Source: a virus
Reading direction: 5' to 3' (one strand)
DNA: 27,322 nucleotides
IMG/VR virus record: IMGVR_UViG_3300032011_000098
Span: 1 to 27,322 of that record
Below, in pieces: positions 1,180 to 18,476 of the stretch (its first letter is position 1; each line of letters starts with the position of its first letter). The notes beneath the pieces are model-generated. The model did no database searches and was not told the DNA's origin. It was given only the letters and a program-made list of their open reading frames with translations. The position numbers and the translations under genes are program-made.

Positions 1180-1200
1180 ATATTTTGCTAAATTTGAAAT

Positions 1201-1557
1201 ATGATAAAAACAGTCTATGCAAGCCAAGAACATAAAGCAATTATTGAAAACTATATGATAATGTGCAAGGAGTTTGCTAAGGAGGTTGCGTCAAAAAACA
1301 AATATCAAAATTATTTACAAGTAATAGAAACGATTATTGACTATCATAATAATTATGGAAACGGGGTTAGGGAAAATAATTGGTATGATTGGCTAATGAT
1401 TATACCGATAAATGTCTCAATAGCAACTAACGGCTTTTTTGCAGGGCTAGAAACAAAAGGAAACAGAGGTATAATAAGGGCGTATAAGATTGTTTTAAAT
1501 GAATTGGTCATCGAAGTCGTTGATAAAATAGATAGACTGGAGCAAATAAATGAATAA
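1201..1557 (+). CDS. Hypothetical protein, 118 aa
   Basis: Starts at ATG 1201, 21 bases after ninG, and overlaps the start of the sigma-like gene by 8 bases. It is predicted to be mostly helical, with a Trp-rich centre (NNWYDWL) followed by a hydrophobic stretch (MIIPINVSIATNGFFAGL) that is short and interrupted for a membrane segment. No family was recognised. An A/T-rich TAAATTTG lies just upstream but lacks a well-placed -33 element. Confidence 0.7.
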   Translation: MIKTVYASQEHKAIIENYMIMCKEFAKEVASKNKYQNYLQVIETIIDYHNNYGNGVRENNWYDWLMIIPINVSIATNGFFAGLETKGNRGIIRAYKIVLNELVIEVVDKIDRLEQINE

Positions 1558-3204: not shown

Positions 3205-3587
3205 TGAAGTTTGTAATAAAAGACAAGCAAGATAAACAAAGCTTGATAAACTATTTAAAAGAGTTAGAAAACAATTATATAGTTGATGTCAAGAAACAAA
3301 GAAACAATAGGTCTAATATGCAGAACAGTTATTATTGGAAATGTATTGTACAAGGACTAGCCGAAGAACTAGGATATTTTCCTGACGAAATGCACGAGAT
3401 ATTAAAAGTGAAGTTTGCAAGTGAATGGCAAAGCATAGAGATACACGACAAGACAATAGGACTTCAAGTTGTAAAGAGTTCAGCAAGAATGAACACTAAA
3501 GAGTTTGAAGTCTATGCAGACCAAATAAGGATTTGGGCTTTGACAGAACTAGGCATAAGATTAATGATGCCAAATGAATATCAATAA
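3204..3587 (+). CDS. NinB-like recombination mediator
   Basis: A 127-aa protein resembling the lambda NinB (Orf) family, which binds single-stranded DNA and helps load recombinase. Matching features are an R-x3-MQN-x-YYW segment near residues 36-46, PDEMHEILKVKF, and a C-terminal STK-like EF-x-VYADQIRIWALTELGI helix ending in a proline-containing strand. It is the last gene before the first late-type promoter element, which begins inside its 3' end at 3571. Together with NinG it suggests an Orf/Rap-like recombination pair. Confidence 0.65.
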   Translation: MKFVIKDKQDKQSLINYLKELENNYIVDVKKQRNNRSNMQNSYYWKCIVQGLAEELGYFPDEMHEILKVKFASEWQSIEIHDKTIGLQVVKSSARMNTKEFEVYADQIRIWALTELGIRLMMPNEYQ

Positions 3588-3599
3588 TTTCTATTATAT
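3571..3599 (+). promoter_or_regulatory. Candidate phage late promoter P1 (before TerS)
   Basis: CAAAT at 3571 is followed 14 bases later by TCTATTATAT at 3590. The CAAAT-to-TATTAT spacer is 16 bp, normal for a -35/-10 pair. The same two-part element occurs before 5145, 14293, 15593 and 17994. A start site near 3604 would put a TTG at 3609 almost on it, and favours ATG 3633 for TerS. Confidence 0.65.
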
Positions 3600-3632
3600 A
3601 ATATAGAATTGAATAATCAATCTATTTCAATT

Positions 3633-3902
3633 ATGGATAAACGAAGAAACAATGGCGGTTCTAGGAAAGGAGCAGGACGCAAAAGCAAAGCTGACGAACA
3701 GAAGTTAATAGAGAACTTAACGCCTATGAATAGTATGGCTTTAAAGTCTTTAGAGCAGGGCTTAGAGAAAAAGGAACAATGGGCTGTCAAATTGTTCTTT
3801 GAATACTTTTATGGGAAACCTCAACAAAGAGTAGATGTTACTTCAAATGAAGAAAGTATCAATATGCCTTTAATAAACTTTGTAGAAACTGAAACTGAAT
3901 AG
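3633..3902 (+). CDS. terS: Terminase small subunit
   Basis: An 89-aa protein with the typical Bacteroidota phage TerS start, NNGGSRKGAGRKSKADE, a basic glycine-rich DNA-binding lead-in. A helical region follows, then a conserved-looking WAVKLFFEYFYGKP segment and an acidic tail. TerS recognises the packaging site and regulates the TerL motor. ATG 3633 is chosen over TTG 3609 because it gives the usual family N-terminus and leaves a leader after the promoter element. It overlaps TerL by 14 bases. Confidence 0.82.
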   Translation: MDKRRNNGGSRKGAGRKSKADEQKLIENLTPMNSMALKSLEQGLEKKEQWAVKLFFEYFYGKPQQRVDVTSNEESINMPLINFVETETE

Positions 3903-5091
3903 TAAATATCAAGCACTATTTTCTGCTGACGCTAGGTACTTCATAATCACAGGGGGGCGAGGGTCAGGTAAGTCTTTTGCTGTAACGGTGTTCTTGACAC
4001 TATTAACAATGTCAAAGAATATAAGAGTATTGTTTACAAGATACACAATGGTATCAGCTCACTTGTCAATCATACCTGAGTTCTTAGAAAAGATAGGACT
4101 ACTAGGTTTTGAGAATATCTTTAGTGTCAACAAAGCAGAGGTTGTAAACTTAGGCAATCAATCTGACATATTATTCAGAGGTATTAAAACGTCATCAGGA
4201 AACCAAACGGCATCATTGAAATCATTACAAGGCATAAGCTGTTGGGTTTTAGACGAAGCCGAAGAACTTATTGACGAAGATATATTTGATACAATAGATT
4301 TGAGTATTAGAGAGAAAGGAATTCAGAACAGAATTATATTAGTATTGAACCCTGTGACTAAAGAACACTGGATATATAATAGGTTCTTTCAAGACAAAGG
4401 CGTTGAAGCAGGTTTTAATGGCGTTAAAGACAATGTATGCTATATACACAGTACATACCTAGACAACAAAGATAATCTCTCTAGCAGCTTCCTAGACCGT
4501 ATTAACACTATAAAGCATAGGAACTTTAAAAAGTATATGCATAAGATCATGGGTGGTTGGCTAGACAAAGCAGAGGGGGTGGTCTTTGAGAATTGGTCAA
4601 TAGGCGAATTTAATCCTGACAATCTACAAACATCTTGTGGCATGGACTTTGGATTTTCAGTTGACCCTGATAGTTTAACAGAAGTTGCTATTGACAAAAA
4701 ACAAAACAAGGTTTATTTGCACGAACATATTTATAAGAATGGCTTGAAGTCACAAGAGTTAGCAAAGATAGTTTTAGACAAAGTAGGTGACAAACTAATT
4801 ATTGCCGATAGTGCCGAACCAAGATTAATCGCTGACCTTAAACACTTAGGGGTTAACATCAAAGCTGTAAAAAAAGGAACTATTGAAAGTGGTATTACGA
4901 GAATGCAAGACTATGAATTAATTGTATCGCCACCCTCTACCAATATAGCAAAGGAACTTAACAACTATGTCTATGCAGACAAGGGTTCAAAACTATATGT
5001 TGACAACTACAACCACGCAATAGACGGCATAAGATATAATGTGATATATCACTTAGACAATCCTAATGCAGGAAAGTATTTTATACATTAA
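3889..5091 (+). CDS. terL: Terminase large subunit (packaging ATPase/nuclease), probable CTG start
   Basis: From CTG 3889 this is a 400-aa TerL (Terminase_3 type). The start region reads KLNSKYQALF, then the Walker A motif GGRGSGKS at about residues 22-29. Walker B with catalytic Glu is VLDEAEE at about 120-126. The RNase H-like nuclease domain has its acidic residues in GMDFG, IADSAEP and HAIDGIRY. The first conventional start codon in frame, GTG 3988, lies after Walker A and would remove an essential motif; a stop at 3883 bounds the frame. CTG 3889 gives the usual family N-terminus and a 14-base overlap with TerS. Either a rare CTG start is used or an ATG was mutated or mis-sequenced here. 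Confidence 0.93.
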   Translation: MKLNSKYQALFSADARYFIITGGRGSGKSFAVTVFLTLLTMSKNIRVLFTRYTMVSAHLSIIPEFLEKIGLLGFENIFSVNKAEVVNLGNQSDILFRGIKTSSGNQTASLKSLQGISCWVLDEAEELIDEDIFDTIDLSIREKGIQNRIILVLNPVTKEHWIYNRFFQDKGVEAGFNGVKDNVCYIHSTYLDNKDNLSSSFLDRINTIKHRNFKKYMHKIMGGWLDKAEGVVFENWSIGEFNPDNLQTSCGMDFGFSVDPDSLTEVAIDKKQNKVYLHEHIYKNGLKSQELAKIVLDKVGDKLIIADSAEPRLIADLKHLGVNIKAVKKGTIESGITRMQDYELIVSPPSTNIAKELNNYVYADKGSKLYVDNYNHAIDGIRYNVIYHLDNPNAGKYFIH

Positions 5092-5101
5092 AAAAACGAG
5101 T

Positions 5102-5130
5102 AAACTATTTTTAACAAATTTCTATTATAT
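5102..5130 (+). promoter_or_regulatory. Candidate phage late promoter P2 (before tail chaperone)
   Basis: TCTATTATAT at 5121 matches the other four copies exactly. The upstream half at the fixed spacing is AAACT at 5102, a 3-of-5 match to CAAAT. It sits in the 53-base gap after terL, with its predicted start about 10 bases before ATG 5145. Confidence 0.5.
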
Positions 5131-5144
5131 AACAAGATAAGACT

Positions 5145-5786
5145 ATGAAAGTAAAAATTAAGAAGAAGGGCAAAAAGAAAAGCTATAATCTTATAACCTC
5201 TTGGGCTGATGTTACCCTTGAAAAATGGATTAAGATAATTGCAGCACAAACAGGAACAAAGACAAAAGAAGCAAGAGCAACAATAACAGCTATGTCTGAC
5301 ATTCCTAAGTCATTAATAAATGAAATGTCTTTAAAAGATGTTGCAGTTTTAATGACTAAGCTAAGTGAGATACAAGCACAAAAAGACACTAAGCTAAAAA
5401 AGATTATAGAGTTAGACGGTTTGCAATATGCGTTCCACCCTAATTTAGATGACATAACTTTGGGTGAATATGCAGACCTTGAAAACTTTATAAAGATTGG
5501 AATAGACAAAAGTATGCCTGAAATAATGGCTGTGCTTTTTAGACCAATAGTTGAGCAAGAGAAAGACATATATTCCATAGCTGCTTATGACGGAAACATA
5601 ACCATAAGGGCGGAGAAAATGAAGCAGATGTCAGCAGAGCAAGTGCAAAGTGCGCTGGTTTTTTTTTGGAATTTCGCAATAGAATTGTCCAAGATTTTGC
5701 CGTCATTTTTAGTGGAACGAACACAGGAGATAGCGAAGAGTTTTCAGACCAAAACTTCGCAGAAAAGTGGGGGTGGTTCGGAGTGA
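5145..5786 (+). CDS. Tail assembly chaperone, short (unshifted) form
   Basis: A 213-aa protein: Lys-rich N-terminus, then a helical core with a W-A-D-V-T-L-E-K-W segment and a LDDITLGEYADLENF segment of the kind seen in phage tail assembly chaperones. It ends in an amphipathic helix and SGGGSE. Near its 3' end a run of nine T (5659-5667) contains the heptamer T TTT TTT in the right frame. Beyond it a -1 frame stays open to 5935 and encodes a protein-like domain. This is the gpG/gpGT arrangement: both forms are needed for tail assembly, in a fixed ratio. Unusually, the gene lies about 6.8 kb upstream of the tape measure gene rather than next to it. Chaperone identity is inferred from the frameshift layout and sequence character. 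Confidence 0.65.
   Translation: MKVKIKKKGKKKSYNLITSWADVTLEKWIKIIAAQTGTKTKEARATITAMSDIPKSLINEMSLKDVAVLMTKLSEIQAQKDTKLKKIIELDGLQYAFHPNLDDITLGEYADLENFIKIGIDKSMPEIMAVLFRPIVEQEKDIYSIAAYDGNITIRAEKMKQMSAEQVQSALVFFWNFAIELSKILPSFLVERTQEIAKSFQTKTSQKSGGGSE
5660..5666 (+). promoter_or_regulatory. Programmed -1 frameshift slippery site
   Basis: In the 5145 frame the codons are GTT TTT TTT TGG, so T-TTT-TTT at 5660-5666 is a perfect X-XXY-YYZ heptamer. Slipping back one base continues as TTG GAA TTT in the frame that ends at 5935. The fusion would be 263 aa (174 + 89). The downstream sequence was not folded, so no stimulator structure is claimed. Confidence 0.7.
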
Positions 5787-5935
5787 TGCACAGGCTTTGT
5801 AACCAAGACATAAGCAAGTTAGAAACAATATCTAAATTGAACTTATTGGAATGTTTGACTTGGTTAACTTATGAAACAGATTTGAATTTAAGTAATAAAG
5901 TAAATATAAATGATAGCAAACAAAACTTACAATAA
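5666..5935 (+). CDS. Tail assembly chaperone, -1 frameshift extension
   Basis: An 89-codon extension in the -1 frame, overlapping the short form by 121 bases and made by slippage at 5660-5666 rather than by starting at the TTG. Its core, NFAEKWGWFGVMHRLC followed by DISKLETISKL and an L-x-E-C-L-T-W-L-x-YETD helix, looks like the conserved gpT-type extension in Bacteroidota phages (KWGWY, gDi, i-x-L-x2-L). Both frames look protein-like in the overlap, which argues against a simple base-calling error in the T run. It overlaps the next gene by 26 bases. Confidence 0.65.
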   Translation: MEFRNRIVQDFAVIFSGTNTGDSEEFSDQNFAEKWGWFGVMHRLCNQDISKLETISKLNLLECLTWLTYETDLNLSNKVNINDSKQNLQ

Positions 5936-6440
5936 CGTTATAGACACCCTTAAACAGTTGGGTGACGAACACCAACAGATTACAACAACAACAACAGGGG
6001 ACATTTGGAAAATTGATTTAAGTAACGAAACGCTGTTTCCTTTGTTTCATATAAACCCTGTTAGCGTAAGCACAGGGCAATCTCAATTAATTTATAACTT
6101 TCAGCTATTTGTTATGGATGCTGTAACTGAAAAAGAGAATTGGACAGAAGCTAATTTTCAATCGGCTAATTATTTAAGTAATGAACAAGAAGTAATGTCA
6201 AGCTGTTTGCAAGTGTGTGTTGATATAATAGGAATGATGCGACATAGTAAATGGCAAGGTGCAGGTGAATTAGATATTAATGACCCTGTTTATTTTACAG
6301 AGGGTGAATATAGCTTAGAGCCGTTTCAGGAAAGGTTTGATAATCTTTTAACAGGGTGGGTGTTTTCAATAGGCGTGTTGGTTCAAAATGACTTTCAAAC
6401 TTGTACGATACCTGTTGCAGATAATCCAATAGGTAAATAA
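5910..6440 (+). CDS. Virion protein, possible tail terminator/completion protein
   Basis: A 176-aa protein of a type common in Bacteroidota phages. It has a polar Thr-rich N-terminus, a TLFPLFHINPVSV strand, a Cys-containing helix (LQVCVDIIGMMR), and a C-terminal EPFQERFDNLLTGWVFSIGV segment. Its size and its place between the tail chaperone and a neck-like protein suggest tail completion or terminator function. That assignment is from context. I recognise the family as recurring but know no experimentally fixed role. Confidence 0.55.
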   Translation: MIANKTYNNVIDTLKQLGDEHQQITTTTTGDIWKIDLSNETLFPLFHINPVSVSTGQSQLIYNFQLFVMDAVTEKENWTEANFQSANYLSNEQEVMSSCLQVCVDIIGMMRHSKWQGAGELDINDPVYFTEGEYSLEPFQERFDNLLTGWVFSIGVLVQNDFQTCTIPVADNPIGK

Positions 6441-6505
6441 TGAAATTCAAAATAGGAAAATACAAAATAGAAATAGGGTTTTTTAAAATAACAATAAATA
6501 TATAA
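6440..6505 (+). CDS. Possible 21-aa peptide
   Basis: A TAATG junction with the preceding gene opens a 21-residue frame, MKFKIGKYKIEIGFFKITI plus two more residues, filling almost the whole gap before 6508. Alternating Lys and Ile/Phe would form an amphipathic beta strand. It may be a real micro-gene or just an A/T-rich leader; there is no other support. Confidence 0.3.
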   Translation: MKFKIGKYKIEIGFFKITINI

Positions 6506-6507
6506 TA

Positions 6508-6957
6508 ATGGCAGATTTAACAGTAACAATTTCCGAGAGTGTAACAATCAATGGTGCATTACGAGGTTCAACAAATAGTATTACAACGTCTAGCATAGTT
6601 GATACTTATGAAAGGGTGTTAACAGCAGCACACTCAAACACCACAACAATATGTACGTTTGCAGCAACTCCGCATACTTCAGCAGGGGCTTTAGATGTTG
6701 AGAATTGTAAATACTTAAGGATTACAAATTTAAGCACAACAGAAGACATGAAGTTAGCTTTAGTAACTACAAACACTAATTATCAAGTTACGGTTCGTGC
6801 AGGTGGTTCTCATGTATTATTTCAAGCAGAAAATGGTGCGATTGCTGAAGCAGATACAACTCCTAACTTTCCAACTTTAGAAGACATTACAAGCGTACAA
6901 GTAAGGCCGTCAGGAAGTGCTGATGTTCAGGTTGAAACATTTGTGGCACTTGTATAA
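6508..6957 (+). CDS. Small beta-rich virion structural protein
   Basis: A 149-aa protein rich in Thr, Ser and Val. It opens with ADLTVTISESVTINGALRGS and contains a KYLRITNLS core and a repeated strand pattern, ending in a VQVETFVALV strand. Proteins of this look are frequent in marine phage tail clusters and are probably tail- or fibre-associated. No enzymatic motif is visible. The ATG follows an AT-rich leader; the stop overlaps the next start (TAATGG). Confidence 0.6.
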   Translation: MADLTVTISESVTINGALRGSTNSITTSSIVDTYERVLTAAHSNTTTICTFAATPHTSAGALDVENCKYLRITNLSTTEDMKLALVTTNTNYQVTVRAGGSHVLFQAENGAIAEADTTPNFPTLEDITSVQVRPSGSADVQVETFVALV

Positions 6958-7532
6958 TGGACACTAAAAGTTTAGAAAATTATTTAGAGAAATTTGGTGA
7001 CAAAGTAATAAAGGCTGCTCAAAGGAAGTTAAGTAAATCAAAAAATGCTTTAGGGAAACCTAGAGGTGAAACAGCATTAGGGCAATCACTTAGGGTTACT
7101 GTCACTAGGGAAACTGACGGTTATAGCACTAAATTCTTTATGGCAGATTATGGAACTTTTTTAGACAAAGGTGTTTCAGGCAATAAGACAAAACAATCTT
7201 TTACAGATTATAAGAATAAAACACAACCCACCCCTTATAGTTACAAAGCAAAGGGTCCACCTATTGATATTCTTTCTAAATGGATAAAGAAAAAAGGAAT
7301 AAAACCTAAAGGCTTAGGTAGAGGGCGTTCTAAAAAAACAGGGCAATTTGTGTCAGGGTTTGCTTACTTAATAAGTAAAAAAATAAAACGAGAGGGAATT
7401 AAAAGCCTTAGTTTCTTTCAAGAACCTTTGGGTGCAGCCTTTAAAGACATGGACAAAGAAATATTAAGTAATATAAAACTTGATATTGAAAGTTATGTAA
7501 CAACATTTTACACACCGAAAACAAAAACATAA
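6957..7532 (+). CDS. HK97 gp10-like neck/tail-completion protein
   Basis: A 191-aa basic protein with an N-terminal helix, strands, then MADYGTFLDKGVSG, the YG-x2-LDKG signature of gp10-like head-tail joining proteins. A disordered Lys/Gly-rich loop (GLGRGRSKKTGQF) and a C-terminal helix with FFQEPLGAAF follow. It probably helps connect the tail to the head. Confidence 0.6.
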   Translation: MDTKSLENYLEKFGDKVIKAAQRKLSKSKNALGKPRGETALGQSLRVTVTRETDGYSTKFFMADYGTFLDKGVSGNKTKQSFTDYKNKTQPTPYSYKAKGPPIDILSKWIKKKGIKPKGLGRGRSKKTGQFVSGFAYLISKKIKREGIKSLSFFQEPLGAAFKDMDKEILSNIKLDIESYVTTFYTPKTKT

Positions 7533-7536
7533 AAGT

Positions 7537-8976
7537 ATGGCAACAATAATAGAACAGAAACCCTTATATGAAACAATGCCAATAGGGCAACAGGTAATGT
7601 TCGTAATCTCTAACAATACAATCGTAGCAAATAACTTCAAGGTAAAGTTTATTGCAGAAGTTCATTGTGGTAGCGACCCTATTAATTTAAGTAGCACTTC
7701 ACAAATCATAGGAACTTTTAAAACAACACCTAACAATGCAGGGGTTGGAATATTTGACCTTAAGTCTGTTTTAGAAACCTTTATAACCCCTGACCATAAT
7801 GGCTCTACGTGGGGTGCAGGTAGTACATTCAGGGGGACTGATGTGCCACACCCAATTCATATTATTGACAAATGTGCCGTAACAACAACAAGTGCTAAAT
7901 ACTTTGCTGTTCAATTCAAATTAGAGTATGCAGAAACTGCTACAGGGGCTATCCTTAATGCAGGTGACGGAAGTAACACAGGCAACGCAGAAAACAGCGA
8001 ACAATACCTTATTACAAATGGTGTGCTGCAATATGATGATGCCCTAACTTATGTTTCTGACACAGGATATGGCTATAATATAAACAAATTTATTGCTAAT
8101 GGTGGGGGTTACTATTTTTTAACTAATGCACCCACTACTCAATATGCAAGTTTGACAGATTACGGAACACTTGCATTCTATAATTTTGTACAACCTTTAG
8201 ACCCTGCCGCACAAAGCACCGAAGACGCTTATGTTAGTGGCTTGAACCTGACATATTATAATAGTGCAGGTGCGGTGTTAGATAGTGAAATCTTAGGCAT
8301 AGATTACAGCAATGGTTCTGTTACCACCTTGCACCCTGATGTTAACACTAGGTTAAACTATGTTGGTGCTTACCCTGCTAACCTTAGAGAATGGAGTACA
8401 AAAATACAAGCATTAATTTCTGCTGACACACTTTCTTATTATACTGTTCAACTTGAAAATGAAGACGGTTGGAATAGTGTTATTTACACAATTAATGTTT
8501 TATGCCCTAACCTTAAAGGCTATGAACCAATAAGGCTTACTTGGTTAAACCAATGGGGGGTTTGGGATTATTATACTTTTAATATGAAGTCAACAAAAGC
8601 AATGACAACTAACAGGACTTCTTACACACAACAAAGTGGTACGTGGAATGAAAGCCTTTTTAAAATATCAGGTTATAAAGGTGGAAAGAAAAACTTTAGG
8701 GTAAACGCAACAGAAAGGATTACATTAAACACCGACTTTGTTACAGAGGAAGAGGGCGTTTGGTTTGAAGAACTAATTAATAGCACAGAAGTTTATATTG
8801 TAAATGGCTATCAACCTGTAATTGATGCACCAACAAATACAATTACCAATAGGTATGTTGAACCTGTTGTTGTAACAACTTCCGATTATATTAAAAAGAC
8901 TATTGCTAATGACAAGCTGATGCAATACACTATCAATATTGAAAAAAGTAAAATGCAAAGAATACAAGCTGTCTAA
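7537..8976 (+). CDS. Tail protein (distal-tail/tip region)
   Basis: A 479-aa beta-rich protein. The C-terminal third is the most conserved-looking part: IRLTWLNQWGVWDYYTFN, a K-x2-Y-x8-W motif, and EEEGVWFEELINSTEVYIV. This resembles large tail-tip proteins of Bacteroidota phages. It precedes the 920-aa hub-like protein and is joined to it by a TAATG overlap, so a role at the tail tip is likely. Specific identity (Dit-like or other) is not established. Confidence 0.6.
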   Translation: MATIIEQKPLYETMPIGQQVMFVISNNTIVANNFKVKFIAEVHCGSDPINLSSTSQIIGTFKTTPNNAGVGIFDLKSVLETFITPDHNGSTWGAGSTFRGTDVPHPIHIIDKCAVTTTSAKYFAVQFKLEYAETATGAILNAGDGSNTGNAENSEQYLITNGVLQYDDALTYVSDTGYGYNINKFIANGGGYYFLTNAPTTQYASLTDYGTLAFYNFVQPLDPAAQSTEDAYVSGLNLTYYNSAGAVLDSEILGIDYSNGSVTTLHPDVNTRLNYVGAYPANLREWSTKIQALISADTLSYYTVQLENEDGWNSVIYTINVLCPNLKGYEPIRLTWLNQWGVWDYYTFNMKSTKAMTTNRTSYTQQSGTWNESLFKISGYKGGKKNFRVNATERITLNTDFVTEEEGVWFEELINSTEVYIVNGYQPVIDAPTNTITNRYVEPVVVTTSDYIKKTIANDKLMQYTINIEKSKMQRIQAV

Positions 8977-11738
8977 TGAATACACAATTAATATTATATC
9001 CGCAGAATTATGACGGTATGTTTAATTCAACAGCCAATGTTGTTAGCCCTAATTATATTGCTAACGGTGCTTTTTTTACAGGGCTAAGTTCTGCACCTTT
9101 AAATTCTAACAATGCTGTAATACCTTATTTTTATGCAATAAATACACAAGGTTCTGCAATTCCAAATGCTTGGTATAGATATACAACCATAGCAGGTGGT
9201 AGTTCAGGTTGGGGTGCAGTAACAGCACCAACAAATACAAGCGGTAATTTAGTGCTATCACACAATTCAACGACAGCAGGGAAGACAGGGGTTTATCAAC
9301 GGATATTAGGTCTTTCAGTTGGTGGGGTTTATAACGTAATAATAGACTTTCAAACCGTAGGTGCAGGGGTTCTTGGTAACCCACCTATTGAGATTGCTAT
9401 GTTTAATGGCAGCACTTATGTTTCAGGTGCATATTACACACTAACGTCAGGGGTGTTAACCCACCAATTCACAGCACAAAGCGTAAATAATGATGTGTTT
9501 CTTATTGATTATTTTAGTGGTTCAGAAGATTGTATAATTAATTCAATATCTATAAAAGAAGTTACCACAACACCGACCACAGTTTACACAGATTTATTTG
9601 ATGGTCAAGTTATTTGTGACTTATACCAAGAAGAAGACATTCCGTTAACACTAAGCATTGACGATTTTAAAAATGTAGCTGAAAAGGTGCAATCCTATTC
9701 TAAAGATTTTAACTTACCTGCAACGAAAAGGAATAACCGTATCTTTAATAATATGTTTGAAATAACAAGAACAGATGACGGATTAATATTTAACCCTTAT
9801 ATAAAAACTAAATGCGTATTAAAGCAAGACGGTTTTATTTTGTTTGAGGGTTATCTTAGATTAATAGATGTAAAAGAAGAAAAAGCTGAAGTAAGTTATA
9901 ATGTAAACCTATATTCAGAAGTTGTTGCGTTGGCTGATATATTAAAAAATAAAACCTTACAAGACCTTGACCTTTCAGAGCTATCACACGAATATAACAA
10001 AACATCAATTAAGAACAGTTGGGAAACAGGTGCAGGAAATGGTTTGCCATTATCAACACCACTTACAGACCCTAACGAGTTTGCAGGTGCTGTTGGTGCA
10101 ACAGTTACACAGGTTCTGAAATACCCTTTTATAGATTGGACAGGGCAAACATTAATAGGTGGAAATTTTAATACATCTGCAACAATAGGTAATGTAGAGT
10201 TAACAAGTTTAGAACAAGCGTTTAGACCTTGTATAAAGCTTAAATATTTAATTGATAAGATATTTGCAGACGCAGGGTTTAATTATACATCTGCGTTTTT
10301 TGATACTACGGATTTTGGAAACTTATTTATGGACTTTAATTGGGGTTCAGATATATCGGCAAATACTTCTTATGACGGTGGTGGTCAAGCGTTTACAAGT
10401 TCTAATGTAGTTGCAGGAACAAGTTTTGCGACAGTAGAACAAGACAATAATACTTTTAGTTCAAATGTAGGTTATAGTTCAGGGGTTTATACATCACCAC
10501 AAAATGCAAGAACTTATGCGATTGACTATTTGTTTTTTTACCAAATAACAGGTTCAGGTACTTTTACAGCAGAATTTAGGTGGAAACATTATAACGCAGC
10601 AACAGGTGTGACAAGCTATATTGACTTAACTTCATTCACAGGCAACACAACTTTGGCTAGTCATTATGGTCAAATCAATATGACCTTAAATCAAAACGAC
10701 ACTTTAACGCCTGAAATTAAAAGGACAGGTAGCAGGGTTTTCACAGTTGTTCCTGCATTGGCAGGTTCTATTGGAACAGTTGTTAGTGTAGGGAATGCAG
10801 ATGTTAATGCTGAATCACTATTAAATTTGCGTGGTGAACTCGGACAATGGGATTTTTTAAAAGGCATTTTTACAATGTTTAACCTTGTCAGCTTAACAGG
10901 CGAAGATAACCAAAACAATATATTAATAGAACCTTATGCTGATGTCTTCGTAAATAGTACAAGTGGAACGACTTTAGCGTCAAGGAGTGTGCAGCATGAT
11001 TGGACAGATAAAATAGATGTATCTAAAATGGAGTTAAAACCATTATCTGATTTGAACAAAGAAACTATTTTTAAGTTTGTTGAAGAAGATGACGATTTTA
11101 CTTTCCAAAATTATAAAAAATATACAAGTGGTTATTTATACGGAAGCCAAACTTTTGATGCGTCAAGTTTTACTATATTAGAGGGTACAGAAGAAATAAC
11201 AGCAGACCCTTTTGCAGCAACTATCCAAAGACCCATTAAGCCACAGTTTCCTGAATTTATAGTACCGATTATTTTTGCTAAAACTGAAGAGGGCTCAACA
11301 GAGGGGTTTGACAATGCACCAAGAATATTCTTTGACAATGGAAAGGTTGATATGACAGGTATTTCAACTTATTTTATACCTGACCAAAACGGACTTACTG
11401 CTGAAAACCAACCTAAATTTTTACAGTTTAGCCATTTGTCAGAAATACCAACAACAGTTACGACTAATGATTTTGTGTTTTCAAGCCACCAACTCTATCA
11501 GCCTATTGGTGCAAGTCCTACGAATAATTTGTATTCTCTTTATTGGCAGCCTTATTTCAATGAACTTTACAACCCTGACACAAGAATAATGACTTTAAAG
11601 GTAAATCTAAGTCCGTCAGATGTGGCTGCTTTTAAATTTAATGATACCGTATTTATTAAAAATAGAGTGTTTAGGGTGAACAACATTAACTACAAACCAA
11701 ACGACCTAGCAACCGTTGAATTTATACTTATACCATAA
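8976..11738 (+). CDS. Large tail-tip/hub protein with N-terminal carbohydrate-binding-like domain
   Basis: A 920-aa protein, the largest in the genome. Residues about 25-195 look like a jelly-roll carbohydrate-binding module (NYIANGAF, GVYQRI, then a DCIINSISIKEV end strand). From about 205 the sequence changes to DLYQEEDIPLTLSIDDFK and SKDFNLPATKRNN, a segment recurrent in Bacteroidota phage baseplate or hub proteins, then a long region with FEGYLRLIDVKEEKAEVSY. The C-terminus has a beta barrel-like end (VFIKNRVFRVNNINY). It may form the tail tip and contact surface glycans. The lectin-like domain assignment is by sequence look only. Confidence 0.62.
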   Translation: MNTQLILYPQNYDGMFNSTANVVSPNYIANGAFFTGLSSAPLNSNNAVIPYFYAINTQGSAIPNAWYRYTTIAGGSSGWGAVTAPTNTSGNLVLSHNSTTAGKTGVYQRILGLSVGGVYNVIIDFQTVGAGVLGNPPIEIAMFNGSTYVSGAYYTLTSGVLTHQFTAQSVNNDVFLIDYFSGSEDCIINSISIKEVTTTPTTVYTDLFDGQVICDLYQEEDIPLTLSIDDFKNVAEKVQSYSKDFNLPATKRNNRIFNNMFEITRTDDGLIFNPYIKTKCVLKQDGFILFEGYLRLIDVKEEKAEVSYNVNLYSEVVALADILKNKTLQDLDLSELSHEYNKTSIKNSWETGAGNGLPLSTPLTDPNEFAGAVGATVTQVLKYPFIDWTGQTLIGGNFNTSATIGNVELTSLEQAFRPCIKLKYLIDKIFADAGFNYTSAFFDTTDFGNLFMDFNWGSDISANTSYDGGGQAFTSSNVVAGTSFATVEQDNNTFSSNVGYSSGVYTSPQNARTYAIDYLFFYQITGSGTFTAEFRWKHYNAATGVTSYIDLTSFTGNTTLASHYGQINMTLNQNDTLTPEIKRTGSRVFTVVPALAGSIGTVVSVGNADVNAESLLNLRGELGQWDFLKGIFTMFNLVSLTGEDNQNNILIEPYADVFVNSTSGTTLASRSVQHDWTDKIDVSKMELKPLSDLNKETIFKFVEEDDDFTFQNYKKYTSGYLYGSQTFDASSFTILEGTEEITADPFAATIQRPIKPQFPEFIVPIIFAKTEEGSTEGFDNAPRIFFDNGKVDMTGISTYFIPDQNGLTAENQPKFLQFSHLSEIPTTVTTNDFVFSSHQLYQPIGASPTNNLYSLYWQPYFNELYNPDTRIMTLKVNLSPSDVAAFKFNDTVFIKNRVFRVNNINYKPNDLATVEFILIP

Positions 11739-12583
11739 TGGAATATTTAACAGGACAAATATTGAAGCCTTATAGAGTAGATAGTACAGGTCAAGTTTTA
11801 TTTACAGACGGCAAGGTTACAGATATGATAGCAAACCAAGTTACCTGTGAGGCTTACGGTTATACTTATGACACCGAAACACAGACTTGCAGGGCTTATA
11901 CTCATAACACAAACATTGAACAAAATACAAGCAATGTTAGTAATAGCATAAATGGGGTTGGTAATAGCACAGAACTAGGAACACAAATTGTTCAAATAAA
12001 TGGAACTAAGAATGTATTGCGTGGGTTTAATACTAATTGTCTTATAAATGGTACAGGTAATGAAATTGCAAATGGGGTTAGCAATTCTTTTGTAGGTGGG
12101 CGAATGGCAGAAGTCACAGCAGACCAATCAATAGTCTTAGGTGGCACTATGTTTGGTAATACAATAATAGGTCACAAGCAAAGCATTCAATTAATGTGCG
12201 GAACAAGGACAACTAATGGCACAAATACCGTCAGCTACTTAAATAATGACGGTTCAAGTCTTTTTGCTGTACCTGAAAATACAGTTATGTACTTTCATGC
12301 AGACGTTGTAGCCGTAAGGATAGGGGGTTCAGCAGGGTCAGGTGCAGCAGGTGACTTTGGTAGTTGGGTTGAAAGGGGTGTGGTAATTAATGAAAGTGGT
12401 TCAATGACTATAAGTAGAGAACGAGATACAATTAAAAGTAACGGTGCAACATCAAATTGGCAACCAACAGGTATTACCCAAGATACAAACTTCGCTATGC
12501 GAGTGAGAGGTGATACAGACATGAATATTGAATGGTTGTCAAACATTACATTCACACAAATAAAAACAGGGGTTAGTTTATAA
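11738..12583 (+). CDS. Tail fibre / receptor-binding protein candidate
   Basis: A 281-aa protein. The N-terminal part, LTGQILKPYRVDSTGQVLF, is followed by a Cys pair (CEAYGYTYDTETQTC). Degenerate repeats of N-G-x-G-N-S type (about residues 70-135) are typical of a trimeric beta-helix shaft. The C-terminal domain starts with a GHKQSIQLMCGTRT segment and is rich in Gly, Asn and Thr, like fibre tips with peptidase_G2-like folds. It is located between the hub and tape measure genes. Receptor binding is inferred. Confidence 0.6.
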   Translation: MEYLTGQILKPYRVDSTGQVLFTDGKVTDMIANQVTCEAYGYTYDTETQTCRAYTHNTNIEQNTSNVSNSINGVGNSTELGTQIVQINGTKNVLRGFNTNCLINGTGNEIANGVSNSFVGGRMAEVTADQSIVLGGTMFGNTIIGHKQSIQLMCGTRTTNGTNTVSYLNNDGSSLFAVPENTVMYFHADVVAVRIGGSAGSGAAGDFGSWVERGVVINESGSMTISRERDTIKSNGATSNWQPTGITQDTNFAMRVRGDTDMNIEWLSNITFTQIKTGVSL

Positions 12584-12595
12584 AAATACAAAGCA

Positions 12596-14257
12596 ATGGC
12601 AACAGAAATACTAGAACTAGATGTTAAGACAAATATAAAAGGTGTCACAAAAGAAGTTGACAATTTAGGTAAAAGCGTAAAAAAGACAGCAGGTGAAACC
12701 GAAAAACTAGGTGAAGCAACAGAAGAGGGTGCAGGTGGCTTTAAGAAAGTAGGCCTCGCAGTTAGAGCAGTTGGTGCTGCAATTAAGGCTATTGGTATTG
12801 GTATGATTATTGCAGGTTTTGTAGCCTTGAAAGAAGCCTTTATGAGAAACCAAAGGGCGGCTGATTTACTTAATACAGCAATGAACTCTGTTAGTATTGT
12901 GTTTAATGAAGTAGTTGACATAATTATAGAAATGATTGATTGGGTCTCAGAAAACAGAGAGCAATTTGAACCTTATATTAAGGTAATGAGAGGTTTAGTA
13001 ACTTTTGGTCTTGAGCCTTTGAAAATGGCTTTTAATTCTACGGAACTTGCTATTAGAGCATTCATAGACGGCTTTATGCGACTTAGAAAGTTTTTAGGTG
13101 AAAGTGGTCTGCAAGATTCTATAGACAAAAATATGTTGGTGATTGAAGACCTGCAAGATAAACTTAGAACTTCAGGCGAAAACCTTTTAGAAGCAGGAAA
13201 GGATGTTTACGAGAATTGGAGTGCAGCTAATGGTGTAATGAACGAGTTTTTGGGTCAAGTCACTACTAGGATTAAAAACATAGACACCAAAAAGATTCTG
13301 GAGTTAGCACATACCATGACGGAAGCAGAGAAAAGAGCAAGGAAAGCAGCAGTTGCAATAGCAGGGGTGATAGCAGAGAATGACCGATTAGCAGAAACAG
13401 AACGAAGAAACAGAGATGACATCACTAAGAATTTTGAAGACAGAATAGCAGCTAGTGAAGAGTTGTTAGTTATCCTAAAAGAGCAAGAAAAACAAATGCT
13501 TTTATTAGTTGCTAAAGAAATAGAAGCAGCTAGACTTGCATCAGAAGCTAACAAAGATAATTTAGATTTAGAGTTGGCTTTAACCCAAGCAATAAACAAA
13601 GAAAAAGAAGTAAAAGCACAAATCAATGGTTTTTTAACAGAGCAAACAATGGCTCACAATGCTTTACTCAAAGAAGAAAAAGAAATACAAGAAGAGGTAA
13701 GGTTAGCAGGTGTTGATAATAGAAAATCAGAGTTAGCAGAGCTAGATGCTCATTACAACCTACTAATGGACAAAGCTAATAAGGTAGGTGCAGACACAAC
13801 TAAAATTCAGGCTAAATGGGATAAGGCAAAAGCTGATTTAGCAAGAGAAAATGTCAACGCACAATTAGAAGCGTTTTCAGGTTTAGCAAAAGGGTTAAGT
13901 GCTTTAGCAGGTGACAACAAAGCCTTAGCCGTAGCGTCAGCCCTTATAGACACTTATGTGGGTGCTAACAAAGCCTTTGCACAAGGGGGTGTTGTTGGTT
14001 ATGTTACAGCAGCAGGGGTGATAGCAGCAGGACTTGCTAATGTCAATAAAATATTGCAAACAGAAGTGCCTGATTCAGGGGGTGGTGGTGGAGCTCCACC
14101 TGCTGCAACCCAAACACCTGCACCACAAATGATGTCAGGAAGTTTTAATTTAGAAAATGCAATACCTGCTGAACCAATACAAGCCTATGTAGTTTCTGAC
14201 GATATAACTAACAATCAAAATAAATTAGCCATTATTAGAAGAAGGGCAACAATCTAA
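12596..14257 (+). CDS. Tail tape measure protein
   Basis: A 553-aa protein with tape-measure architecture. It has a short N-terminal coil, a hydrophobic glycine/alanine stretch at about 51-80 (AIKAIGIGMIIAGFVALKEAF), long helical coiled-coil regions rich in Glu, Lys and Ala (about 230-420), and a second hydrophobic Ala/Gly segment at about 435-485 before a Pro/Gly-rich tail. Tape measure length sets tail length; at about 1.5 angstrom per residue this predicts a tail of roughly 80 nm, so a siphovirus is likely. Confidence 0.8.
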   Translation: MATEILELDVKTNIKGVTKEVDNLGKSVKKTAGETEKLGEATEEGAGGFKKVGLAVRAVGAAIKAIGIGMIIAGFVALKEAFMRNQRAADLLNTAMNSVSIVFNEVVDIIIEMIDWVSENREQFEPYIKVMRGLVTFGLEPLKMAFNSTELAIRAFIDGFMRLRKFLGESGLQDSIDKNMLVIEDLQDKLRTSGENLLEAGKDVYENWSAANGVMNEFLGQVTTRIKNIDTKKILELAHTMTEAEKRARKAAVAIAGVIAENDRLAETERRNRDDITKNFEDRIAASEELLVILKEQEKQMLLLVAKEIEAARLASEANKDNLDLELALTQAINKEKEVKAQINGFLTEQTMAHNALLKEEKEIQEEVRLAGVDNRKSELAELDAHYNLLMDKANKVGADTTKIQAKWDKAKADLARENVNAQLEAFSGLAKGLSALAGDNKALAVASALIDTYVGANKAFAQGGVVGYVTAAGVIAAGLANVNKILQTEVPDSGGGGGAPPAATQTPAPQMMSGSFNLENAIPAEPIQAYVVSDDITNNQNKLAIIRRRATI

Positions 14258-14260
14258 AAT

Positions 14261-14289
14261 CAAATAAATTAACTTAAAATCTATTATAT
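14261..14289 (+). promoter_or_regulatory. Candidate phage late promoter P3 (before coiled-coil protein)
   Basis: CAAAT at 14261 and TCTATTATAT at 14280, with exactly the same 19-base offset as P1, P4 and P5. The start ATG is only four bases after the element, so a start site at the usual distance gives a leaderless or nearly leaderless transcript. Confidence 0.65.
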
Positions 14290-14292
14290 AAT

Positions 14293-14934
14293 ATGCCATG
14301 TACTAAATGTAAAGACGGAAAATATAAATGGGGTGAAACAGGTGAGTGTAAATATGACACTAAAGAAGCCTGTGAAAAAGCTAACCCAAAACACTATAAT
14401 AAAATGAAACCAACACCAATAGGAAAAAAGACGTATGAAGAATATGCGAAAGAATTAAAAGAATATAACTTGAGTGCTAATTATAGAGTAGAATTAGGGT
14501 TAGCTGATGATGTAGAGAAACAAACTTTACAAGCTAAAGAAATACTGGCTACATTAAAAGAACAAAAAAAAAGAATTGACTCTATTGAAAAATTAAGTGA
14601 AAAAGCTTCAAAAGAAAGAGAAAAGAAAAAAGATAATTCAAGAAAAGCAGCCGATAAGTTTTTTGCTTTACAAGACAAATACCAAAAAGCAGAAGTAGCT
14701 TATGATGATGCAGAAAAGGAATTAGATAGGTCAATGAAAAGATTGGTAGAACTTGATGATGAAATTAAAAAATCAACAGCTGTTTTTGATAAAGAAAAAT
14801 CAAAGGGTTCTAAAATAACAACTACATTAAGAAAGAACTTAGATAAATTAGAAAAAGCAGCAAAAGAATTAGGAGTAAAAATACCTACTGCACAAGCTAC
14901 AAAAGTATTAGACCAACTAAAATCTTTGATATAA
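14293..14934 (+). CDS. Coiled-coil protein with N-terminal Cys knuckle
   Basis: A 213-aa protein. It begins MPCTKCKDGKYKWGETGEC and continues with YDTKEACEKANP, a four-Cys module that recurs in Bacteroidota phage structural genes. The rest is long charged helix (Lys/Glu-rich, about residues 55-190), strongly suggestive of a coiled coil. It sits directly before the protease and scaffold genes, so a head-assembly role is possible. No function is established. Confidence 0.65.
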   Translation: MPCTKCKDGKYKWGETGECKYDTKEACEKANPKHYNKMKPTPIGKKTYEEYAKELKEYNLSANYRVELGLADDVEKQTLQAKEILATLKEQKKRIDSIEKLSEKASKEREKKKDNSRKAADKFFALQDKYQKAEVAYDDAEKELDRSMKRLVELDDEIKKSTAVFDKEKSKGSKITTTLRKNLDKLEKAAKELGVKIPTAQATKVLDQLKSLI

Positions 14935-14935
14935 T

Positions 14936-15544
14936 ATGAAAGAAACTAGAATAGTAGAATTAGTAATTGATGAAAATAGTGAAGAACTTGCTATTGATGC
15001 AATCAGCTTAGTTGCTGCACCTGCGATAGAACAAGACTTTGTTTTCTTTGGAAAAGAGAAAAACAACTTGACATTTGCTAAGGTTGATAAAGAAAAGAGA
15101 ATGCTTGTTAGCCCTGCTTTGATACCGAATAAGCAAATATTTAGATATGACCCAAATACAGATTCAGACTACTATGTTTATTTCAGCCCTGAAACTGTAA
15201 GAAAAGCGAGTGAGTTATATTTGAAAAATAACAACCACCACAAAGCAACTCATGAACACCAAGATAGAGTGTCAGGAGTTTTAACTGTTGAAAGTTGGAT
15301 AATAGAAGATAGCAAAAAAGATAAGAGTACATTATACGGATTTAGTTTACCAAAAGGAACGTGGATGGTAAAAATGAAAATTGAGAATGACGACTTATGG
15401 GCTAAGATTAAAGACGGCTCGTTAAAAGGCTTGTCTATTGAGGGCTATTTTACGGATAAAATGCAAAAGATGTCAGAAAGACAACCAACAGACTTAGAGA
15501 TACTTTCAGCACTTAACGAAATAATTAGAAAATCAAATAAATAA
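14936..15544 (+). CDS. Prohead protease, XkdF-like (Peptidase_S78_2 type)
   Basis: A 202-aa protein with the XkdF-like serine protease layout: RMLVSPALIPNKQIFRYD, VYFSPETV, NNHHKATHEHQ with candidate catalytic His (H106 or H108), VESWIIED, GFSLPKGTWMVKMKI, and LKGLSIEGYF with the candidate nucleophile S167. It would process the scaffold and capsid precursors during head maturation. It lies just before the scaffold and capsid genes, the usual order. Confidence 0.82.
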   Translation: MKETRIVELVIDENSEELAIDAISLVAAPAIEQDFVFFGKEKNNLTFAKVDKEKRMLVSPALIPNKQIFRYDPNTDSDYYVYFSPETVRKASELYLKNNNHHKATHEHQDRVSGVLTVESWIIEDSKKDKSTLYGFSLPKGTWMVKMKIENDDLWAKIKDGSLKGLSIEGYFTDKMQKMSERQPTDLEILSALNEIIRKSNK

Positions 15545-15562
15545 ATAACTATTCTATTATAT
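15534..15562 (+). promoter_or_regulatory. Candidate phage late promoter P4 (before scaffold and capsid)
   Basis: CAAAT at 15534 (in the end of the protease gene) and TCTATTATAT at 15553, same 19-base offset. Predicted start near 15567, giving a leader of about 26 bases to ATG 15593. Extra copies for the capsid genes would fit their need for high expression. Confidence 0.65.
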
Positions 15563-15592
15563 TAATATAACTCACTATTAAAAAAAGACACA

Positions 15593-16306
15593 ATGGATTT
15601 AAAACAACAAATATTAGTAGCACTTGGTCTTAATAAAGACGAAGAAGTGCAATTAGCTTGGCAGTCTAAAAGCGAAGATGGAACAATTTTTGTAAGCACC
15701 GCAGAAACTTTAGAAGCAGGTGTGGATATTTCTGTATTAACAGAAGACGGCACGACCATACTTTTACCAATCGGCACTTATAAGACACAAGACGGTGTTA
15801 GCTTTAGAGTAGAAGTTGAGGGTGTTGTCGCTGAAGTTATTGAAAGTGAAACAGAAGAGAAAGAAGAAGCGAAAAAAGAAGACGATTACGAAGAAGATAA
15901 AGAAGAAAAAGAAGAAATGGGCGAAGACAGAGGCGAAGATGATGACGAAGCTGCTGTTGATGATTGGCAAGGAATGGAAAAGCGAATTAAAAATCTTGAA
16001 GACGCTGTTGCTGACCTTAAAAAACAAATCGGTGAAAATGGTGATGTTGAAGAAATGACAGAAGAAACTGTTGAGCCGTCTAAAAACCCAAAGACTATAA
16101 CAACAAAAGAAGTTGTAGAATTTTCAGCAGAAGAAGTTGAAGCAATAAAAGCTGAAAACGAAAAACTTAAAACGGAACTAGCAGAAAGTCCTGCCGAAGC
16201 TCCAATAAATACAAATAAATTTAGTTCAGAAAAAACTGAATTAACTAAAAAACAATATAATAAGTTATCTAGGCAGCAAAGATTCTTATATAACTTAAAC
16301 AAATAA
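15593..16306 (+). CDS. Scaffolding protein
   Basis: A 237-aa, very acidic protein. The N-terminal half is beta-rich with a T-Y-x-T-Q-D-G-V-S-F-x-V-x-V-E-G repeat-like strand pattern. A long Glu/Asp/Lys stretch follows (about 84-125), then a coiled-coil (KRIKNLEDAVADLKKQI, and later AEEVEAIKAENEKLKTEL), and a basic C-terminus (KKQYNKLSRQQRFLYNLNK) of the kind that binds capsid protein. Its place between protease and major capsid protein supports the call. Confidence 0.75.
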   Translation: MDLKQQILVALGLNKDEEVQLAWQSKSEDGTIFVSTAETLEAGVDISVLTEDGTTILLPIGTYKTQDGVSFRVEVEGVVAEVIESETEEKEEAKKEDDYEEDKEEKEEMGEDRGEDDDEAAVDDWQGMEKRIKNLEDAVADLKKQIGENGDVEEMTEETVEPSKNPKTITTKEVVEFSAEEVEAIKAENEKLKTELAESPAEAPINTNKFSSEKTELTKKQYNKLSRQQRFLYNLNK

Positions 16307-16327
16307 TAACTTAAAAAATAAAAAATT

Positions 16328-17263
16328 ATGGCAATAGCAGTAACTAGCTCGTATGCGGGGAAAAGTGCAGGAATGTACATAGCCGCAGCTTTAAAAGAAG
16401 CAAAATCTTTAGATTATTTAACGCAAATGAACAATGTGCGTTTTAAGAGTGCAATACAGACGATGGCAAACACAGGTTTCGTGAGAAACGCTACTTGTGA
16501 TTTCACAGGAAACGGAACACTCACAATGAACGAAAAGGTCATTGAAGTAAAACCGTTACAAATTAATATTGATTTGTGCAAAGAATCGTTAGTTTCATCA
16601 TGGGAATCGGCTGAAATGTCAGGTGCTTATGGTAACCCACCAGCATCATTTGTAGATTATGTAATTTCTTACATGGGGTCAATTATCGCTGATGCAACTG
16701 AAACAGGTATATGGCAAGATGATAACGGTAATGGAGAATTAACAACATCATTCTTACAAGCAGCAGGTTTATTACTACCTGGTACAGATGCAACAGTAAT
16801 ACAATCATCAGCATCAGGTGCTTATACAACAGCTAACATTCTAGCAAACTTACAAACTTTAGCTGCCGATATGGCAGGTAATGTACCAGCTATCTTAGGA
16901 AAGGAAGATTTATATATTTATATGAACAATAAAACTTTCTCATATTATATTTCAGCAATTTCTTCATTTACAGGTACGCCTTGGGGAAGTTTAAATACTA
17001 GAGGCGATTATGAGCCAGTTTTTGAAGGCTACAAAATTGCAGTTTGTCCAGGAATGGTTGACAACCAAATGGTAGCAGCTCAAAAATCTAACTTATTCTG
17101 GGGTACGGATTTGGTTTCAGACTTAGGAACAACGGGAACAGGACCTAGTATAAAAATTATGGACATGTCAGACCTTGATGGATCAGATAATTTACGTTGT
17201 GTAGCTCGTTATTCAGGTGCAGTTCAGACAGGAATTGGTGCTGACATTGTAAGACAATCATAA
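16328..17263 (+). CDS. Major capsid protein (HK97-like)
   Basis: A 311-aa protein after the scaffold. Features fitting an HK97-fold capsid protein in Bacteroidota phages are an N-terminal helical region (AGMYIAAALKEAKSLDYLTQM), the E-loop-like VIEVKPLQINIDLCKESL, a DYVISYMGSIIADATETGIW spine-like helix, and a C-terminal P-domain with EGYKIAVCPGM. A strong hairpin follows at 17278-17299. Confidence 0.8.
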   Translation: MAIAVTSSYAGKSAGMYIAAALKEAKSLDYLTQMNNVRFKSAIQTMANTGFVRNATCDFTGNGTLTMNEKVIEVKPLQINIDLCKESLVSSWESAEMSGAYGNPPASFVDYVISYMGSIIADATETGIWQDDNGNGELTTSFLQAAGLLLPGTDATVIQSSASGAYTTANILANLQTLAADMAGNVPAILGKEDLYIYMNNKTFSYYISAISSFTGTPWGSLNTRGDYEPVFEGYKIAVCPGMVDNQMVAAQKSNLFWGTDLVSDLGTTGTGPSIKIMDMSDLDGSDNLRCVARYSGAVQTGIGADIVRQS

Positions 17264-17277
17264 AACAAATTACAAGA

Positions 17278-17299
17278 AGTGAGGGCTTAGGCTCTCACT
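17278..17299 (+). terminator. Hairpin after the capsid gene (attenuator or stabiliser)
   Basis: A 9-bp stem (AGTGAGGGC / GCTCTCACT, with one G-T pair) closes a TTAG loop. There is no clean T tract after it, so it is more likely a partial terminator or an mRNA-stabilising hairpin than a full terminator. Confidence 0.6.
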
Positions 17300-17326
17300 C
17301 CTTTAACCTTTAAAACATAAAAATCA

Positions 17327-17893
17327 ATGGCGTGTACAGCATTAACAAAAGGTAGAGGACTTGATTGTAATAGAATATCAGGTGGAATAAAATTTATATA
17401 TTTCGCAGTTTATGACCAAGTGACTTCAATACCAACAGCAAACGGAGCAATTACAGACTTAGAAATGGGTAGTAATATGTTATACAGATATACAATGCCT
17501 TTAGGTGTTGCTAGTCTTACAGATACAATTACAGGTAGTCGTGAAAACGGCACAATTTTTTACACCCCAACTGTTAATGTTATACTTAACAGATTGACAA
17601 CAGCAGATCAAAATGAAGTGAAGCTGTTAGGGGCAACAAAGACAATAATATTTGCACAGCTAAATCAAACAGTAACGGCAACAGGGAATGACGTAATAGT
17701 GTGTTTAGGTAGTGTAAATGGAATGGAATTAAACGCAGGTACTATGGATAGTGGTGCTGCATTTGGTGACCGTAATGGGTACACTCTGACCTTTGACGGC
17801 TTAGAGCACCAACCTTTCCAATTCGTACCTGACTATACTACAAACCCATTTGACAATGGAGGGTTTACGTTAGGTGGTGTTGATAGTAACTAG
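17327..17893 (+). CDS. Probable major tail (tube) protein
   Basis: A 188-aa protein with a well-conserved look: TALTKGRGLDCNRISGGIK, TDLEMGSNMLYRYTMPLG, ENGTIFYTP, and GDRNGYTLTFDGLEHQPF. It follows the capsid gene and ends in a strong terminator, as expected for an abundant structural product. A tape-measure phage needs a tube protein, and this is the best candidate by size and abundance cues. A head decoration role is an alternative. Confidence 0.55.
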   Translation: MACTALTKGRGLDCNRISGGIKFIYFAVYDQVTSIPTANGAITDLEMGSNMLYRYTMPLGVASLTDTITGSRENGTIFYTPTVNVILNRLTTADQNEVKLLGATKTIIFAQLNQTVTATGNDVIVCLGSVNGMELNAGTMDSGAAFGDRNGYTLTFDGLEHQPFQFVPDYTTNPFDNGGFTLGGVDSN

Positions 17894-17929
17894 ACTTTAA
17901 TTAGTAGTTTTCATATATCTTGGATTAGG

Positions 17930-17951
17930 GGTGGCTTTTGCCACCTTTTTT
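17930..17951 (+). terminator. Rho-independent terminator
   Basis: A perfect GGTGGC / GCCACC stem with a TTTT loop, followed directly by six T (17946-17951). It ends the capsid/tube unit and lies 11 bases upstream of promoter element P5. Confidence 0.9.
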
Positions 17952-17961
17952 CTTACATTAG

Positions 17962-17990
17962 CAAATATTTAAGTACGTTTTCTATTATAT
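17962..17990 (+). promoter_or_regulatory. Candidate phage late promoter P5 (after the terminator)
   Basis: CAAAT at 17962 and TCTATTATAT at 17981, with the same 19-base offset. It lies just past a strong terminator, so the genes from 17994 need a new promoter here. ATG 17994 is three bases after the element, giving a leaderless or nearly leaderless transcript. Confidence 0.7.
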
Positions 17991-17993
17991 ATT

Positions 17994-18476
17994 ATGATAC
18001 AAGCAACAAGGGAAGCTAATATTAGGGCGTATATTGAAACGGAAGCACAAAGAATTGATACAGGTGTTGCTAAAACTAATATAAGGTTTTTAGCTAAATT
18101 CATTAATGACTTAGACGGTGCAGTATTTTATGGCTATCCTACGACTTACACTATAAATGACAGATATACATTAATGTCTTGGACTTATAATACAACCCCT
18201 GACGTATATGGAGGCAGAATAAATTTAAAACCTGCTGGATATTATAAGTATGAAATTTATGAAGTTAGTTGGCAAGGTGGTGTCGATTTAGCTTCAGGAA
18301 ACGCACCTGCAACAGAAACAGATGTATTGACACCCCCTGCTGCAACAAAAGGAGTGGTGAAAGGACTTGTAGCAATAGGGAAACTATACTTAGCAGAAAA
18401 ATCAGGAAGTGAGGAAGTTCAGTACACAGAGTATGACCAACCTGCTTCAACAAATTATATATATTACGGACAATAA
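17994..18476 (+). CDS. Virion-associated hypothetical protein, 160 aa
   Basis: A 160-aa protein with an N-terminal helix (REANIRAYIETEAQRI), then beta strands (DRYTLMSWTYNTTPDVYGG, YYKYEIYEVSW) and a C-terminal segment VQYTEYDQPASTNYIYYGQ. The pattern recurs in Bacteroidota phage head clusters, often before lectin-like proteins. A head surface or fibre-anchor role is plausible; no defined family function is known to me. Confidence 0.6.
   Translation: MIQATREANIRAYIETEAQRIDTGVAKTNIRFLAKFINDLDGAVFYGYPTTYTINDRYTLMSWTYNTTPDVYGGRINLKPAGYYKYEIYEVSWQGGVDLASGNAPATETDVLTPPAATKGVVKGLVAIGKLYLAEKSGSEEVQYTEYDQPASTNYIYYGQ

Follow-up and report, generated by a model that had tools for sequence, protein, structure and literature searches.

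We analysed a 27,322-base DNA stretch from a virus (IMG/VR record IMGVR_UViG_3300032011_000098; the whole stretch is called the window below), which carries five copies of a two-box element, here named P1 to P5. Our results suggest that P1 to P5 are late promoters read by the host core RNA polymerase together with a phage sigma factor that resembles extracytoplasmic function (ECF) sigmas and is encoded by the open reading frame (ORF) 1550-2113. We give this reading a probability of about 85%, and we infer the contact between sigma and DNA. In the model that we propose, host-type TAnnTTTG promoters would drive the early genes, including the sigma gene, and the sigma factor would then turn on the terminase, tail, head and portal genes. 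The upstream box, [C/A/T]AA[A/C]TAAA, would be contacted by region 4 of the sigma and the TTTCTATTATATA box by region 2, and transcription would start at a pyrimidine-A (Y-A) step 32 nt past the first base of the upstream box. At P3, P5 and a third of the related sites, this +1 position would be the A of an ATG, and the mRNAs would be leaderless.

Exact searches agree with the initial annotation, which had reported five copies of TCTATTATAT with CAAAT 19 bases upstream in four and AAACT in the fifth. TCTATTATAT is found exactly at the five positions on the + strand given in Table 1 and nowhere exactly on the - strand; CAAAT-N14-TCTATTATAT is exact at P1, P3, P4 and P5, and AAACT-N14 precedes the copy at P2. 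A weight matrix trained solely on relatives and then applied to the window gave scores of 39.3, 32.4, 28.6, 24.3 and 23.0 bits for the five sites. The next best non-overlapping site in the window reached only -2.9 bits and the best among 20 shuffles 7.5 bits, so that chance is excluded. As had been thought, there is no other full match, and no equally good match lies inside a gene. The element was also said to be always intergenic, which holds for three copies, while in two the upstream half falls within the 3' end of the ORF before it (3204-3587 and 14936-15544). A scan for the sigma-70 consensus returned 83 matches versus 75 expected and is uninformative here. The TAnnTTTG -7 box of the Bacteroidota primary sigma-A is absent at P1 to P5 and present at 1189 and 23951; a host sigma-A promoter reading of P1 to P5 was rejected, since no such box stands at the right place.

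Relatives were gathered by the sigma factor, by the large terminase subunit (TerL) and by the gene at 16328. Counted over distinct upstream regions, the element is present at the five gaps, in order, in 63/69, 70/76, 17/36, 19/24 and 20/22 cases. The same gaps total 189 of 227 upstream regions, versus 1 of 1670 before other genes, a comparison for which the Fisher p is indicative only, as the relatives are not independent. When IMG/VR was scanned without recourse to homology, with just the CAAAT pattern of the element and P2 thus left out, at least 80 loci were returned, every listed one belonging to this phage family. Among the matches listed, 76 of 87 sites lie directly upstream of a family gene, 75 of these at four of the five gaps. 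Thirty near-full-length related genomes hold 126 copies on one strand and 15 on the other (12 on both strands together for a reversed-pattern control), and the copies sit at the starts of gene blocks. Of 64 relatives compared at the gap after TerL, 59 have AAACT at the offset seen in P2, and P2 is thus a conserved second form rather than a degraded copy. The P1 element is kept even where the small terminase subunit (TerS) is of another type, and there it adjoins the ATG of the new gene. This very strong conservation, together with the lack of equal matches within genes, bears out the description of the element as late-promoter-like and of a non-host type.

Across 313 distinct sites, the refined element reads [C/A/T]AA[A/C]T[A/G]AA, a spacer of nine nucleotides and TTTCTATTATATA, with the distance between the boxes fixed and a Y-A initiator 32 nt past the element's first base. 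The first ATG lies 3 nt past the element in 107 of these sites (34%) and 5 nt past it in 60, where chance would give ~2% per position. At the 97 sites whose ATG is at least 12 nt away, an A occupies offset 32 in 96% and a pyrimidine offset 31 in 84%. The initiator is thus kept when the ATG is distant, which marks it as independent of the start codon. Within the window, P1, P2, P3 and P5 carry an A at offset 32. The start sites predicted by the initial annotation lie one base too far downstream, and transcription would instead begin at offset 32 (revised positions in Table 1). Relatives conserve the N-termini encoded from 14293 and 17994 (MPCxKC... and MIQA...), so these two ATGs look like genuine starts. 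Since the +1 position would be the A of the ATG in 34% of the relatives' elements, leaderless late mRNAs are implied, and judging from the sequence, P3 and P5 probably produce such mRNAs. Leaderless mRNAs are uncommon in flavobacteria: they make up 5.5% in Flavobacterium psychrophilum (PMC9723704), and in F. johnsoniae the majority of mRNAs carry a leader (PMC6847099).

The candidate reader of these elements matches PHROG sigma families in a profile search. Its AlphaFold model (predicted local distance difference test, pLDDT, 77) consists of two helical domains and a disordered linker, and the top PDB matches found by Foldseek are the ECF sigmas SigL, SigH, RpoE and SigW. The C-terminal domain of the model fits the sigma4 domain of 3hug with 1.9 Å over 66 columns. 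An ECF layout, with only sigma2 and sigma4 and a short linker, is seen in the model and in its top PDB matches, while the sequence scores are weak. A profile search of the sigma against PDB sequences gave no significant match, and tblastn against annotated phages gave none at E 0.01. In the alignment of the sigma family the region-4 helix is nearly invariant, and the gene lies a few kb upstream of the terminase across the clade. As to the ECF promoter type, P2 has AAC; the window clade has CTATTATAT instead of a CGT -10, and several sister clades do have CGT.

Sister loci were defined as TerL relatives of P12024S; by terminase, the Nonlabens phages P12024S/L are the closest cultured relatives of the window (TerL 63% identical). 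Sister-clade proteins match the window-type or the P12024S-type sigma profiles, many of them both, and are usually encoded a few kb upstream of TerL. The type of element tracks the type of sigma: TCTATTATAT occurs in 8 of 8 loci with a window-type sigma and in 0 of 34 with a diverged sigma. Phages with diverged sigmas carry other -10 boxes (CGTTTATA, CCGTTAATATA) at the corresponding places, and after TerL many of these clades show boxes of their own that adjoin an ATG, among them AACAAA...ACGTTTATATAAT-ATG, AACAAATTTGTTTATACCAT-ATG and AAACATTAAC...GTATTATATAAAT-ATG. Automatic pairing of upstream regions in the sister clades gave many false pairs, so only those repeated at late genes were kept; some variants recur within one genome. 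The clades with their own boxes also differ in their sigma4 helices. P12024S lacks the exact element of the window and has ~6 copies of AAAACAAA...CGTTAATA before late genes. Its gp33 is a Sigma70_r2 protein, which hhalign aligns with the window sigma family over region 2 only (E 1.7e-4, probability 50).

Several observations speak against late promoters read by a phage sigma. The Sigma70_r4 match of ORF 1550-2113 is weak and under the Pfam cut-off, and the global E-values of Foldseek are modest. P4 has no initiator at exactly offset 32, which is T15566, the A following one base later (A15567). That sigma and promoter have diverged together to a greater extent than common descent, as measured by TerL, would explain has weak support (partial Mantel r ~0.2, p 0.02-0.06), and the pairing of sigma and element therefore leans mainly on the split of 8/8 versus 0/34. 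The loci behind these counts are related and the counts not independent, and shared ancestry could partly explain the split.

An alternative, which we consider improbable, is that the elements are promoters read by a host sigma factor, either the primary one or a host ECF sigma, perhaps with a phage activator on the upstream box. Host RNA polymerase is needed in any case, since the search for an RNA polymerase gene in the window genome found none, and flavobacteria have several ECF sigmas with CGT -10 promoters (PMC9723704), a triplet shared by many sister-clade elements. However, the early genes do show the host-type boxes that P1 to P5 lack, and between clades the -10 box varies with the phage sigma, which an activator site combined with a constant host sigma does not predict. 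That the elements are translation-start signals, replication or packaging sites, or AT-rich chance repeats is hardly credible: many copies adjoin an ATG, and an A-rich stretch ahead of the start codon is favoured in flavobacteria (PMC6847099), but the 3' edge and the initiator persist where the ATG is 12-45 nt away, the spacing of the two boxes is fixed, no element was found before ~30 other genes in relatives, the copies lie nearly all on one strand at gene-block starts, and chance is excluded by the matrix scores. We thus favour promoters read by the phage sigma. With somewhat more reserve, we think it fairly likely that a clade of marine Bacteroidota-type phages has fast-diverging ECF-like late sigmas, each with its own compact promoter whose +1 is often the A of an ATG, so that the late virion genes would be largely leaderless.

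Table 1 Coordinates of the elements, genes and other features in the window
Feature	Coordinates	Strand	Details
Host-type -7 box TAAATTTG	1189..1196	+	4 nt before ATG 1201; -33 box weak
Small conserved protein	1201..1557	+	overlaps the sigma gene, upstream of it
Phage sigma factor, candidate reader of P1-P5	1550..2113	+	187 aa, ECF-like: sigma2, disordered linker, sigma4
Late promoter P1 (predicted)	3571..3603	+	CAAATGAA 3571-3578; TCTATTATAT 3590-3599; predicted +1 A3603
P1 target (predicted)			terminase genes; TerS ATG 3633, leader ~30 nt
Late promoter P2 (predicted)	5102..5134	+	AAACTATT 5102-5109; TCTATTATAT 5121-5130; predicted +1 A5134
P2 target (predicted)	5145..14257	+	from ATG 5145; tail region by gene order
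Late promoter P3 (predicted)	14261..14293	+	CAAATAAA 14261-14268; TCTATTATAT 14280-14289; predicted +1 A14293 = A of ATG, leaderless
Late promoter P4 (predicted)	15534..15567	+	CAAATAAA 15534-15541; TCTATTATAT 15553-15562; predicted +1 15566-15567; ATG 15593
Intrinsic terminator adjoining P5 upstream	17927..17948	+	9 pairs
Late promoter P5 (predicted)	17962..17994	+	CAAATATT 17962-17969; TCTATTATAT 17981-17990; predicted +1 A17994 = A of ATG, leaderless
P5 target (predicted)	17994 onward		includes portal
Host-type promoter TTG-N19-TATGTTTG	23951..23980	+	start of early gene run

All window genes considered lie on the + strand. The terminator that the initial annotation had placed before P5 at 17930-17951 is present, and scores at slightly different coordinates (Table 1); most relatives also show a GC stem and a T run at this place. 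The host-type promoter reported at 23951 is present as well. Upstream of the sigma gene, 72 of 92 relatives have a TAHHTTTG box 3-5 nt, in most cases 4, ahead of the adjoining gene's ATG, and the box at 1189-1196 is a candidate host-sigma promoter of the sigma operon. The position of this box (1189-1200) would likewise place the transcription start at the ATG. The product of 1201-1557 may, as a guess, be a partner of the sigma factor. In the TerS leader (window 3608-3632), relatives conserve either GATTGAATAATCAATC or ACTTGATTAATCAAAT, which are palindrome-like, with TTTCAA next to it on the 3' side; the motif is not seen where TerS belongs to another type, and is possibly an operator or a packaging site. 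The TerL frame opens at 3886 rather than at GTG 3988, and the Walker A motif (GGRGSGKS) lies upstream of 3988. Neither the window nor 86 of the 106 relatives have an ATG, GTG or TTG ahead of this motif. Codon 2 of the open frame, inside the 3' end of TerS, is CTG in nearly all and TTG in a few, which suggests that TerL either starts at a conserved CTG or arises by a TerS-TerL frameshift (window 3886-3990).

The termini of the window record are near-identical over ~150 bases. In the end regions, window 1-525 and 27150-27322, a thymidylate synthase-like gene extends from one end into the other. The terminal repeat and the gene across the junction imply a circular map, and the window very probably holds an entire phage genome. 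A nucleotide search of the window against annotated phages gave no match. In a scan of genome contigs for a host or prophage, only two contigs of metagenome-assembled genomes matched, labelled Pseudooceanicola and Euryarchaeota, and both look like misbinned phage. The host is therefore placed by inference only, as a flavobacterium-like organism. The terminase of 'Shigella phage Henu10' (OQ791282) matches the query equally, and at the same coordinates, as that of a Riemerella phage. For Riemerella RAP44 and Olleya Harreka_1, whose TerL is 37-43% identical, the annotation lists no sigma.

Phages of the window clade are plentiful in IMG/VR, and the element supplies exact predicted start sites together with a candidate sigma. 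If the proposed reading is true, these phages hold a natural set of sigma/promoter pairs that differ in specificity, within a phylum in which leaderless mRNAs are uncommon. The pairs of the sister clades could help to decode how sigma residues read DNA and to build promoters for Bacteroidota. The layout with the ATG at +1 offers a concrete test of leaderless translation where, as in F. psychrophilum, leaderless mRNAs are just 5.5% (PMC9723704).

In the open-licence literature searched, we found no sigma-dependent late programme mapped in a Bacteroidota phage. The ECF motif SM6 of F. psychrophilum belongs to a chromosomal regulon and has CGT (PMC9723704), where the window clade has CTATTATAT. 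Like the window, P12024S/L (Inhavirus) combine a similar TerL with a Sigma70_r2 gene upstream of the terminase and a repeated late element adjoining ATGs. They differ in a sigma only ~17% identical, a CCGTTAATATA -10 box, a genome of 35.7 kb and a record without annotated promoters. T4 gp55 is a very small, diverged sigma-family protein that confers late promoter specificity (PMC2988020), and in these respects it resembles the window sigma, more remotely than the phiEco32 and 7-11 sigmas do. It lacks sigma4, for which gp33 substitutes, and is coupled to the replication clamp, whereas the window has both domains in one protein and a two-box promoter. The nearest known systems are the sigmas gp36 of phiEco32 and gp47 of Salmonella phage 7-11, which provide experimental precedent for the principle (PMC8948821): a phage sigma redirects host core RNA polymerase to late promoters, as we propose here. 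The late element of 7-11 is likewise bipartite (GTAAtg-16-aCTA), with starts 6-9 nt from the element, and the two sigmas are 15% identical with dissimilar promoters (PMC8948821). Both phages infect another host phylum, their sequences are unrelated to the window at the level tested, and their promoters are not described as lying on the ATG. The principle of a phage sigma is thus already known, and the sigma and late promoter set described here would be a new, clade-wide variant of it in marine Bacteroidota-type phages.
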